NCBI RefSeq assembly: GCF_024227715.1
Contig: NZ_CP100448.1
Location: 868,001 to 932,000, forward strand
DNA: 64,000 nucleotides
Reading direction: 5' to 3'
DNA from: Halomarina litorea
GTDB lineage: Archaea > Halobacteriota > Halobacteria > Halobacteriales > Haloarculaceae
Positions 20,853-53,646 of the stretch are shown piece after piece. A model generated the notes under the pieces. It made no database searches. It worked only from the letters and a program-made list of their open reading frames with translations, and was not told the origin of the DNA. Within the stretch, counting starts at the first letter, position 1. Every line of letters starts with the position of its first letter. The translations under genes were made by a program, and so were the position numbers.

Positions 20853-22736
20853 ATGGCGAGCAACAAGATTCTCGGTATCGACCTCGGTACCACCAACTCC
20901 GCGTTCGCGGTGATGGAGGGCGGGGACCCGGAAATCATCGTCAACGCCGAAGGCGAGCGGACGACCCCCTCGGTCGTCGCCTTCACGGACGACGAGCGAC
21001 TCGTCGGTCGCCCCGCGAAGAACCAGGCCATCCAGAACCCCGAGCGCACCATCGCGTCCATCAAGCGCCACATGGGCGAGGAGGGCTACACGGTCGAGGT
21101 CGACGGCGAGGACTACACGCCCGAGGAGATCTCGGCGATGATCCTCCAGAAGATCAAACGCGACGCCGAGGAGTACCTCGGCGACGACGTCGAGAAGGCC
21201 GTCATCACGGTCCCGGCGTACTTCTCGGACCGCCAGCGACAGGCGACGAAGGACGCCGGCGAGGTCGCCGGCTTCGAGGTCGAACGCATCGTCAACGAAC
21301 CGACCGCCGCGTCGATGGCCTACGGCCTCGACGACGACACCGACCAGACCGTGATGGTGTACGACCTCGGCGGGGGCACCTTCGACGTCTCGGTGCTGGA
21401 CCTCGGTGGCGGCGTCTACGAGGTCGTCGCGACGAACGGGGACAACGACCTCGGGGGCGACGACTGGGACCAGGCGGTCATCGACTACCTCGCCGACGAG
21501 TTCGAGGCCGAACACGGCGTCGACCTCCGCGAGGACCGACAGGCTCTCCAGCGCCTGAAGGACGCCGCCGAGGAGGCGAAGATCGAACTCTCCAGCCGGA
21601 AGGAGACGACCATCAACCTCCCGTTCATCGCGGCGGGCGACTCCGGGCCGCTGAACCTGGAGACGAAACTCACGCGTGCGAAGTTCGAGTCGCTGACGCG
21701 CGACCTCGTCAAGCGCACGGTCGAACCGACCGAGCAGGCCCTCTCGGACGCCGGCTACTCGAAGTCCGACATCGACGAGGTCATTCTCGTCGGCGGGTCG
21801 ACCCGGATGCCGATGGTCCAGGAACAGGTCGAGGAGCTCACCGGGCAGGCCCCGAAGAAGAACGTCAACCCCGACGAGGCCGTCGCGCTGGGCGCGGCCA
21901 TCCAGGGTGGCGTCCTCTCGGGCGACGTCGACGACATCGTCCTCTTGGACGTGACGCCCCTCTCGCTCGGTATCGAGGTCAAGGGCGGCCTCTTCGAGCG
22001 TCTCATCGACAAGAACACGACCATCCCGACCGAGGAGTCGAAGATCTTCACCACGGCCGCGGCCAACCAGACCAACGTGCAGGTCCGCGTCTTCCAGGGT
22101 GAACGCGAGATGGCAGACCAGAACGAACTGCTCGGCGAGTTCCAGCTCGCGGGCATCCCGCCCGCCCCCGCCGGCACGCCCCAGATCGAGGTGACGTTCA
22201 ACATCGACGAGAACGGCATCGTCAACGTCGAGGCCGAGGACAAGGGGTCGGGCAACGCCGAGTCCATCACCATCGAGGGCGGCGCGGGCCTCTCCGACGA
22301 GGAGATCGACCGGATGCAACAGGAGGCCGAGGAGCACGCCGAGGAGGACAAGGCCCGTCGCGAGCAGATCGAGGCGCGCAACGACGCCGAGGGCGCGGTC
22401 CAGCGCGCTCGCACCCTCATGGAGGAGAACGAGGAGAACGTCTCCGACGACCTCCGCGAAGACATCGAGGCGGCCATCGAGGACGTCGAGGCGACCCTCG
22501 AAGACGAGGACGCCTCCACCGAGGAACTGCAGGAGGCCACCGAGGCCCTCTCGAAGGAACTGCAGGAGATCGGCAAGCAGATGTACGAGCAACAGGCCGC
22601 TCAGCAGCAGGCGGGCGGTGCGGGCGCCGGTGCCGCGGGCGCCGGCCCCGGTGCGGGCGGTGCCGGTCCCGGTGCGGGCCAGGAGTCGGAGTACGTGGAC
22701 GCCGACTTCGAGGACGTAGACGAAGACGACGAGTAG
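20853..22736 (+). CDS. dnaK: Chaperone DnaK (Hsp70)
   Basis: 627 residues. ATPase phosphate-1 motif [16 protein letters not shown] at the N-terminus, phosphate-2 [14 protein letters not shown], adenosine motif [14 protein letters not shown], then the beta-sandwich substrate domain ([12 protein letters not shown]) and helical lid. The C-terminus is a Gly/Ala/Pro-rich linker and an acidic tail [15 protein letters not shown]. Unlike most genes here it has a Shine-Dalgarno GGAGGT at 20844-20849, four nt before the ATG, so it is probably translated from a leadered message. A GTATAA box lies near 20725-20730. Confidence 0.97.
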
Positions 22737-22751
22737 TCGTCTTCGTCTGCC

Positions 22752-22770
22752 CGCCGGACGCAGTCCGGCG
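22752..22770 (+). terminator. Hairpin downstream of dnaK
   Basis: CGCCGGAC (22752-22759) and GTCCGGCG (22763-22770) pair perfectly around a 3-nt loop. It begins 15 nt after the dnaK stop. The stem core GCCGGAC/GTCCGGC also occurs in the hairpin array at 53.1 kb. A terminator or mRNA 3'-end stabiliser is the simplest reading. Confidence 0.5.
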
Positions 22771-52085: not shown

Positions 52086-53042
52086 ATGCACGCAGTCGTT
52101 CTGGCCGGTGGGTACGCGACGCGACTGTGGCCCATCACGCGCCATCGCCCGAAGATGCTCCTTCCCGTGGGCGAGACGACGGTCATCGACTCGATTCTCT
52201 CGGAACTCGAAGCGGACGACCGGATCGAGCACGTCTACCTGAGCACCAACGAGCGCTTCGCGGCCAGTTTCGAGGACCACCTCGCGGAGCAGGGCTACGA
52301 GAAGGCCAGCCTCTCCATCGAGGACACCACCGCCGAGAGCGAGAAGTTCGGCGTCGTCGGCGCGCTCGCCCAGCTCGTCGAGCGCGAGGAGGTCGACGAC
52401 GACCTCCTCGTCGTCGCCGGCGACAACCTCATCGGCTTCGACATGAGCGACTTCCTCGACTTCTACGAGGAGCGGGGCACCTCGACCATCGCCGCCTACG
52501 ACGTCGGCTCGCGCGAGAAGGCGACGTCCTACGGCCTCGTCACCCTCGACGGCGACCGAGTCGTCGACTTCCAGGAGAAGCCCGACGACCCCGACAGCAC
52601 GCTCGTCTCCATCTGCTGTTACGCCTTCCCCGCCGACTCGGTGCGGTTCCGGGAGTACCTCTCGGGCGACAACAACCCCGACGAACCCGGCTGGTTCATC
52701 GAGTGGCTCCAGCGCGAGGAGGCCGTCGACGCCTTCTGCTTCGAGGAGCCGTGGTTCGACATCGGCACGCCCGAGGCCTACCTCGAGGCCGTCGCGTGGG
52801 CGCTCGACGGCGAGAACCGCGTCGCGGACAGCGCGGTGCTCGAAGACTGCACGCTCGGCGACAACGTCCACGTGATGGCCGGCGCCGACCTCCGGAAGGT
52901 CTCGCTCACCGACTCGGTGGTCTTTCCCGACGCACACCTCGAGGACGCCGACATCGCCGACTCCATCGTCGACGAACACGCCGACATTCGCGGCAAGGAC
53001 CTGCAGTGCTCGCTGGTGGGGTCGTACTCGCGGATCTGCTGA
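52086..53042 (+). CDS. Sugar-phosphate nucleotidyltransferase with left-handed helix tail
   Basis: 318 residues. Starts MHAVVLAGGYATRLWPIT with the activating motif GG-x4-RLWP; KMLLPVGE; the metal Asp in VVAGDNLIG; the substrate motif VDFQEKP; and WFDIGTPEAYLE. The C-terminal ~70 residues are hexapeptide-like repeats (DSAVLEDCTLGDNVHVMAGADL). It forms an NDP-sugar from sugar-1-phosphate and NTP; the sugar is not predictable, and a role in the same glycosylation as the AglD-like protein is possible but unproven. The hairpin array begins 19 nt after its stop. Confidence 0.88.
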   Translation: MHAVVLAGGYATRLWPITRHRPKMLLPVGETTVIDSILSELEADDRIEHVYLSTNERFAASFEDHLAEQGYEKASLSIEDTTAESEKFGVVGALAQLVEREEVDDDLLVVAGDNLIGFDMSDFLDFYEERGTSTIAAYDVGSREKATSYGLVTLDGDRVVDFQEKPDDPDSTLVSICCYAFPADSVRFREYLSGDNNPDEPGWFIEWLQREEAVDAFCFEEPWFDIGTPEAYLEAVAWALDGENRVADSAVLEDCTLGDNVHVMAGADLRKVSLTDSVVFPDAHLEDADIADSIVDEHADIRGKDLQCSLVGSYSRIC

Positions 53043-53060
53043 GCCACCTTTTATCCACGC

Positions 53061-53369
53061 GCCGGGGTCGCGAAGCGACCCCGGCAGTGTAAAAGCTGGA
53101 GCATCGCCGGACTGCACCGCAGTCCGGCTAGCAGTCAGAGCGCGCGGCGCTCTGACGGCATCACCAGAACGGCTCCGCCGTTCTGGTTAGCAGCCAGAAA
53201 TCCCCGATTTCTGGCGACAAAAGGATTCCCTCACCCGTTCGAGCCTTCGGCTCTCACGGGTTCGGTCACCCCGCTCGCTCCGGGAGACTCGCGTCGCTCG
53301 TCTCCCGTGCTCCCGTTCGCTTCGTCGCCGGCGCTCGCGCCGGCTTCCGGCGGGACCTTCGGTCCCGCC
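53061..53369. repeat. Array of at least eight consecutive perfect hairpins, mostly with 3-nt loops
   Basis: No gene is visible from 53043 to 53646. Within 53061-53369 stand: 53061-53085 (11-bp stem, loop GAA), 53106-53128 (10 bp, ACC), 53134-53156 (10 bp, GCG), 53163-53187 (11 bp, TCC), 53193-53215 (10 bp, CCC), 53233-53261 (outer ACCCGT, inner GAGCC with loop TTC), 53281-53307 (8-bp outer stem), 53327-53344 (GC-rich, loop 2-4 nt), 53349-53369 (9 bp, TTC). The stems differ in sequence, so each is an independent palindrome. ACTAGTTTTT at 53431-53440 further down could be a + strand termination run; 53370-53646 otherwise shows nothing. Confidence 0.85.
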
Positions 53370-53646
53370 CAGCTCACGGGAACTTCACTCGCTCGCGGTA
53401 CAGTGCCCCGACAGCCCCGCGCCAGACCGGACTAGTTTTTCGTCGGGCGGAATTTCGTCTACCGCGCGTCGGTCGGTCCGGTCGTCTGCTCTGGTACACC
53501 ACTCCGGCCCCGTCCGAGTCCGCCGAACACGCCAGCGACCGTCAGGAGCGTCTCCCCGAGTATCGCCGGTCGGTTCGGTCGAACCCAGTTCGGGTAGTGC
53601 TCTCCGGTGCGTGTCTCCCCGAACCAGAGCGTGTGGTCGGGTCCCG

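Follow-up and report, generated by a model that had tools for sequence, protein, structure and literature searches.

A hairpin string in Halomarina litorea reads as a probable stack of miniature double-hairpin DNA elements

Why do nine hairpins of similar shape follow one another between two convergent genes of Halomarina litorea? An earlier note on the 64,000-nt stretch analysed here (the window) had described at least eight perfect palindromes with unrelated stem sequences, most of them with 9-11 bp stems and 3-nt loops. It had offered three readings: a mechanism generating foldback sequences, selection for an RNA of beaded stem-loops, or a DNA structure between the convergent genes.

The hairpin string lies far above chance

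The string occupies positions 53061-53369 of the window and consists of seven perfect and two imperfect hairpins, with 3-nt loops in six of the perfect ones. Those six lie at 53061-53085 (11-bp stem), 53106-53128 (10 bp), 53134-53156 (10 bp), 53163-53187 (11 bp), 53193-53215 (10 bp) and 53349-53369 (9 bp). The seventh, at 53327-53344, can be drawn with an 8-bp stem and 2-nt loop or with 7 bp and 4 nt, and the imperfect hairpins, at 53233-53261 and 53281-53307, are 85% paired. The string first noted is thus real, although the count of perfect palindromes drops to seven and the 9-11 bp, 3-nt geometry applies to six of them.

No other perfect stem of at least 9 bp with a 3-nt loop occurs in the window. 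Dinucleotide shuffles of the window (n = 100) gave a mean of 1.21 such hairpins, with a range of 0-4 and a maximum of one per 309 bp, and shuffles of the region itself (n = 1000) gave a mean of 0.013 stems of at least 8 bp against the 6 observed. The fold z-score was -10.8 both for RNA over 53030-53420 and for DNA over 53100-53220. Outside the window, the 280 kb of the same genome that were sampled held just 11 perfect stems of at least 9 bp with a 3-nt loop, four of which form two hairpin pairs. Within the window, at 22718-22770, a 13-bp hairpin adjoins an 8-bp triloop hairpin in a coding-like region.

The earlier note had also considered that such strings might be absent elsewhere or that this one might be an assembly artefact. 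An artefact is unlikely, because a second copy, 93% identical, stands at G000:C1:46367-46549 of the same genome (positions 148-330 of the query 52900-53460) and related arrays occur in sister species.

The proposed position between convergent genes was borne out by domain matches. Upstream lies a nucleotidyltransferase gene (PF00483; 52086-53042, plus strand) and downstream a large multicopper oxidase gene (PF07732, PF07731; 53647-58302, minus strand), whose frame is unusually long at 1551 aa.

The core of the string is two copies of a dispersed module

We searched 40 relatives with the DNA of 52900-53460 (E <= 0.001) and obtained matches in 27, the short ones mostly within the hairpin part. 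Inspection of 20 matching stretches revealed three separate pieces in various combinations, namely a long hairpin with CTTTT/AAAAG arms (T1), a double-hairpin module and a tail. Dispersed repeats make up the string as a mosaic, with two tandem modules of about 57 nt at its core.

T1 (53044-53099, plus strand) is the 5' half of a composite repeat of gene 3' ends. Its outer arms, CCACCTTTTA and TAAAAGCTGG, enclose the perfect 11-bp hairpin at 53061-53085, with loop GAA, and it starts 5 nt past the nucleotidyltransferase stop codon (1 nt with a wider motif). Module beta (53103-53159, plus strand, 57 nt) follows, reading ATC, the hairpin at 53106-53128, TAGCA, the hairpin at 53134-53156, and GGC; the same module stands at L021:1123-1179, and versions with other stems in loci L002, L003, L004 and L033. 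Module alpha (53160-53218, plus strand, 59 nt) reads ATC, the hairpin at 53163-53187, TAGCA, the hairpin at 53193-53215, and GAC; it recurs in L002, L003, L021, L036, L040 and L042, and with covarying stems in L026 and L047. The composite resumes with its tail (53219-53307, plus strand), which comprises AAAAGG and the two imperfect hairpins, and a 93% identical stretch lies at G000:C1:292690-292880 (query positions 314-503). Last comes the gamma pair (53324-53371, minus strand), in which a 4-nt linker connects the hairpins at 53327-53344 and 53349-53369 and the outer foot bears GTC. Gamma is akin to the module by architecture only and may belong to its family; gamma-like pairs occur in other genera (L010, L011, L012, L014).

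The module consensus is (C)ATC-HP1-TAGCA-HP2-GAC(A), about 57 nt, where HP1 and HP2 are the hairpins and the bracketed outer C and A may or may not belong to the unit. The claim of unrelated stem sequences does not hold: four of the stems are two copies of one module, their linkers are common, and modules recur elsewhere in the genome or genus. We aligned 17 instances, picked from perfect hairpins, and built a covariance model (cut-off E <= 0.1 in the genus and E <= 0.01 in the order, its E-values being rough), which scored beta at 4e-22 and alpha at 8.5e-18. It found the module in 7 of the 8 Halomarina genomes and in 151 of 195 genomes of the order, spanning 59 of 67 genera; the order-wide match counts exceed the true copy numbers because both strands are counted and the module is nearly palindromic. 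Exact matches to a 19-mer that spans the linker were present in 72 stretches among the genome contigs, 70 of them haloarchaeal by title, while the other two (L139, L146) lack the hairpins. Neither the plasmid collection nor the viral contigs, searched with one exact 19-mer, gave a match, and Rfam returned no family for 52900-53600 at E <= 1.

A second set of 99 anchors was defined by TAG[CT]A followed by RYCAGA, with no demand that the far arm pair. Among these, in loci mostly fetched for holding the module (as were those behind the counts of neighbours, flanks and tags below), 48 show the geometry of two 10-bp stems with 3-nt loops; stems start A/G-C-C and the linker is TAGCA. Dropping the two non-haloarchaeal stretches left 97 modules for the pairing and flank counts, and across their different contexts, which include places other than convergent-gene intervals, the left end is CATC in 89 and the right end GACA in 85.

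Similar flanks occur with and without the module

Otherwise very similar flanks occur both with and without the module, at the right ends of TnpB transposons and in T1 repeats, and for this reason we regard the module as an insertion at C|A; the copies and flanks compared are paralogous in part. At TnpB right ends the insertion point is CCCC|ACCCT, inside the 5' arm of the right-end palindrome CCCCACCCT...AGGGTGGGG. An empty end (L175) and a filled one (L194) are 92% identical over 303 shared columns and differ by a 57-column gap, and the same empty end matches another filled one (L183) at 95% over 239 shared columns, again with a 57-column gap.

T1 composites behave in the same way. Empty composites (13 rows; L021 and L077 mark the same site, which leaves 12 distinct) read AAAAGCTGGACC|AAAAG or near variants such as GGACC|AAAAG. 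Filled ones, in 18 rows, carry inserts of 56-59 nt in 12 and 111-117 nt in 6, that is, one and two modules; the composite of the window is one of the double insertions, with 116 nt. At the orthologous locus, T1 and tail stand alone, with no module, in G003 and G005 (GGATC|AAAA and GGACC|AAAA), G006 has T1 with two modules, and G001, G002, G004 and G007 have neither T1 nor modules. In the G006 ortholog (L028, G006:C2, reverse complement of 1481-2000), the T1 loop holds two extra hairpins, a case of insertion nested within a loop. Other hairpin pairs have occupied linkers as well: TCGTC|ATCACGA is filled in L109-L112, and such a pair is empty at L031:1295-1344. Single empty sites may reflect precise deletion and not the prior state, and our search yielded no strain-level presence/absence pair for the module.

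Three further observations concern T1. A scan for its motif found 2 loci in 344 kb (4 rows, counting both strands). The second of these T1-like repeats, with CTTTT/AAAAG arms, follows an ORF stop at L060:18378, with no module match noted. In two congeners, G120 and G173 (L114, L116), two T1 types are swapped between neighbouring sites while the module stays at the first site; therefore, gene conversion also appears to reshape T1 loci.

The module is an optional part of TnpB right ends

The frequent neighbourhood of tnpB raised another explanation, in which the double hairpin is part of the omega-RNA, or right end, of TnpB transposons (IS200/IS605, IS1341-type), and intergenic copies are decayed right ends, relics like PATEs. 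In the loci mostly fetched for holding the module, a frame resembling TnpB (26 cases) or TnpA (1 case) lies no more than 1.5 kb from 27 of the 97 modules, many of which follow tnpB immediately on its 3' side and share its strand, and 47 of the 97 have the right-end type of right flank, including one in the genome of the window (L208). Right ends sampled regardless of the module, however, tell against this. We located them by a sequence pattern on the 3' side of the insertion point, outside the module; the pattern occurs in 93 genomes, and the 30 ends are the loci returned for 30 of these, not a random draw. The module is missing from 29 of the 30, and AGCCCCACCCTC is unbroken in 19 of those 29 by our count. 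L153, L175 and L201 are right ends that look intact and lack the module, and where the module is present it splits the 5' arm of the right-end palindrome. In addition, the TnpB left end carries a different hairpin, and copies of the window type lack flanking right-end sequence. We therefore dropped the idea of an omega-RNA core, which the empty right ends largely refute, and consider a right-end origin highly improbable. On account of the differing left-end hairpin we likewise rejected T1 plus module as a fused left and right transposon end.

In the genome of the window, neighbouring tnpB genes cluster at G000:C1:2.705-2.714 Mb (L208, L212, L217), with a hairpin pair (CCAGAACGC..., GACGAGAGC...) upstream of two of them.

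Pairing and loops point to single-stranded DNA hairpins

In the alignment of 17 instances, under a two-helix structure, 99.7% of cells pair, a figure that is partly due to selection because the instances had been chosen as perfect hairpins. With the same choice of instances, both partners have changed in 14 of the 21 pairs; counted by cell, there are 66 double changes and 1 single-sided change. Comparison with relatives, which the earlier note had proposed as a check, thus showed pairing kept across species by double changes. The 97 modules, for which far-arm pairing had not been demanded, gave 1902 pairs, with 1866 of them Watson-Crick, 24 mismatched and 12 G-T. Among the departures from Watson-Crick pairing a share of 0.33 is G-T, and random single changes without any tolerance of wobble predict 0.17-0.38 (kappa 1-6), so that wobble seems to be tolerated no more than other mismatches.

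C(GNA)G triloops are very stable DNA mini-hairpins. All 177 triloops close with a C-G pair; the geometry was fitted by maximum Watson-Crick pairs, which favours paired closings but not the C-G orientation. GNA (59) and TNC (48) loops together number 107 of the 177, against 59 expected from single-position frequencies (36 and 23, respectively). The orientations are nearly equally frequent, with GAA 28 and TTC 23, and GGA 27 and TCC 25. The Watson-Crick double changes, G-T at chance level, uniform C-G closing and preferred GNA/TNC loops point to module hairpins that act as single-stranded DNA, on either strand.

These data bear on the view that selection acts on RNA, with the hairpins serving at mRNA 3' ends as a terminator or stabiliser between convergent genes and owing their pairing to that selection. 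The gene arrangement and the very strong RNA fold fit such an element, as do the T1-type repeats, 14 of 25 of which start no more than 30 nt from the stop codon that ends an ORF of at least 100 codons. An RNA under selection for beaded stem-loops is not supported by G-U pairs that are no commoner than chance, and the near equality of the triloop orientations fits DNA better than one RNA strand. Furthermore, the orthologous position in G001, G002, G004 and G007 lacks such a string, and no Rfam family was matched. We regard an RNA element as unlikely.

Stacking of modules and a proposed mode of insertion

Modules accumulate both in tandem and nested within other hairpins. In 18 of the 97, loci for which were mostly fetched for holding the module, the next bases are ATC, ATT or ATG, that is, another module or hairpin begins. 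L225 has three modules in tandem, and L156 has two in one TnpB right end. In G201 an identical, nested four-hairpin block of about 140 nt occurs in three places with different outer flanks (L221, L222, L223). The outer arms of this block are ACGGGAG/CTCCCGT, and it may itself be a composite, SMR-like mobile element.

We propose, at a probability of roughly 0.7, that the string is a stack of miniature mobile double-hairpin DNA elements that insert at C|A; the dispersed family, the precise empty and filled sites, both kinds of stacking and the compensatory stem changes are the observations behind this. The repeating unit would be (C)ATC-HP1-TAGCA-HP2-GAC(A), with 9-11 bp stems and 3-nt loops, entering precisely between a target C and A, often in or beside an existing palindrome. 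With A as its first base and C as its last, a module placed at C|A has a C|A at either end of itself. This would explain strings of fixed geometry but differing stems, and we infer that the regeneration of C|A drives stacking. New modules would land beside or inside old ones, as C|A is present at both module ends and also in the linkers of hairpin pairs. In the window, the 3'-end repeat (T1 and tail) would have taken up alpha and beta in tandem, with the related gamma pair further on. By analogy with bacterial REP transposases, an HuH-type enzyme supplied in trans would move the module by cutting its single-stranded DNA hairpins at CA. Among the three original readings, a mechanism that generates foldbacks comes closest; it would operate by serial insertion of ready-made double hairpins and not by synthesis of foldbacks de novo.

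Synthesis in place is what a local mutational process would entail, with replication template switching at quasi-palindromes making and perfecting foldbacks without transposition. Perfect arms, together with loops that vary freely and are often reverse complements of one another, are the expected outcome of arm correction and loop inversion. Such a process leaves unexplained why modules at unrelated places, and across 59 of 67 genera, agree in linkers, ends and length, and why otherwise similar sites differ by a clean 57 nt. As the origin of the string it is very unlikely, although template switching may still act on modules after their insertion.

The module resembles bacterial REP repeats

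REP-type repeats are known from bacteria. The earlier note had set them aside on the ground that REP elements share a consensus; the module has one as well, lying in linkers and tags more than in stems. It also has the general REP/REPIN trait of dispersed, multi-copy extragenic palindromes. We collected the outer tags of 181 hairpin pairs (n = 362), from loci largely collected for the module: TGTC occurs 71 times, CATC 69 and CGTC 27. In the same loci 48% of tags fit YNTC against 0.045 per position, and YNTC stands at both outer feet in 67 of the 181 pairs and CGTC at both ends in 7.

These outward YNTC tags resemble those of bacterial CGTC-type REP dimers. The available parts of Di Nocera et al. 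(2013, PMC3733652) give CGTC REPs tags of CGTC, TGTC or CCTC, describe them as mostly outward-facing (HH) dimers and state that they have no known transposase. Alike in both are short palindromes in pairs, outward tags, common heterodimers with different stems and an intergenic position near 3' ends; the outward-facing arrangement that predominates there is found in the 67 pairs with YNTC at both feet. As far as that text goes, CGTC REPs differ in having 8-9 bp stems and 4-5 nt loops (9-11 bp and 3 nt in the archaeal module), AT pairs at stem positions 1-2 and a CCA tail, both missing from the module. The commonest left tag of the module, CATC, is not among the variants given there and its linker is 5 nt; tandem and nested stacking is frequent in the module, whereas grouped CGTC elements are described as rare. 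The word Archaea appears in the available text of PMC3733652 in the reference list only.

With GTAG REPs and REPINs, as portrayed in the available portions of PMC3116915 and PMC8266576, the module shares compensatory changes and, as proposed, doublets that move as a unit; the Stenotrophomonas REP described there is an 8-bp perfect palindrome with a 3-nt loop. REPIN spacers are longer in those accounts, at 71 or 110 bp. The GTAG tag is not part of the module and appears only where the linker reads TAGTA before G. According to the same part of PMC8266576, TnpA-REP enzymes cleave the single-stranded DNA next to a REP hairpin at CT, and the Marinomonas enzyme cleaves on either side of the hairpin, at CT and CA. 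The module boundaries would fit this cutting scheme, in that its sites behave as C|A in sequence comparison.

Haloarchaea have small elements of their own, compared here by description. SMR-A elements of Haloquadratum, in the available text of Dyall-Smith et al. (2011, PMC3119063), enter near-terminal palindromes of IS605-type transposons without target duplication, and their mobilisation is called enigmatic. The module likewise sits at CCCC|ACCCT inside the right-end palindrome, where a duplication of C, A or CA would look like none; SMR-A, by that description, is about 110 bp long with terminal inverted repeats, and the module is 56-59 nt long with ends ATC and GAC. PATEs, described in the same text, are also non-coding, haloarchaeal and without target duplication, and those of 52 bp that consist of termini only come near the module in size. 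They derive from the ends of IS605-type transposons, and the module is missing from 29 of 30 matching ends. Filled modules lie in the region that yields the haloarchaeal TnpB omega-RNA/sotRNA in the available part of PMC12558985, and the module is optional there. The open-access literature text gave no archaeal REP or haloarchaeal non-autonomous palindromic family, and the modules seem to be archaeal relatives of bacterial REP repeats that have apparently not been described before.

At about 57 nt, and with a presence in most haloarchaeal genera, the module would rank as a very small mobile unit, and the family would explain odd hairpin strings at gene 3' ends. It also bears on the annotation of haloarchaeal TnpB and omega-RNA, because modules in right ends can pass for the omega-RNA scaffold. 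The ready supply of empty and filled sites helps the search for a mobilising enzyme.

Candidate enzymes for mobilisation

GTAG REPs and REPtrons have a linked RAYT, a Y1 transposase; nothing RAYT-like was found beside the module, apart from the one tnpA of G124 described below. The Y1 transposase domain PF01797 had no match in the genome of the window. It is present in 114 of the 195 genomes of the order and absent from 57 of the 151 that bear the module and from 16 of the 34 with at least 10 matches (Fisher p = 0.056). With this weak association, we rejected the Y1 transposase as sole mover. A bracketed transposase was also considered in G007, where two arrays lie between genes, and no transposase was seen in the sequence inspected by eye.

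Extending the proposal to the whole order, we tentatively suggest an archaeal REP system in which recognition of the mobile unit would depend chiefly on the shape of its DNA hairpins, together with a few bases of the linker and tags. Stems would diverge while pairing is kept, insertions would recreate C|A and so give rise to strings, and the mover would be an enzyme other than canonical Y1 TnpA.

In G124:C56 (L241:1316-1386 and 1494-1853), a module lies 108 bp upstream of a tnpA frame, the sole such case among the matches listed.
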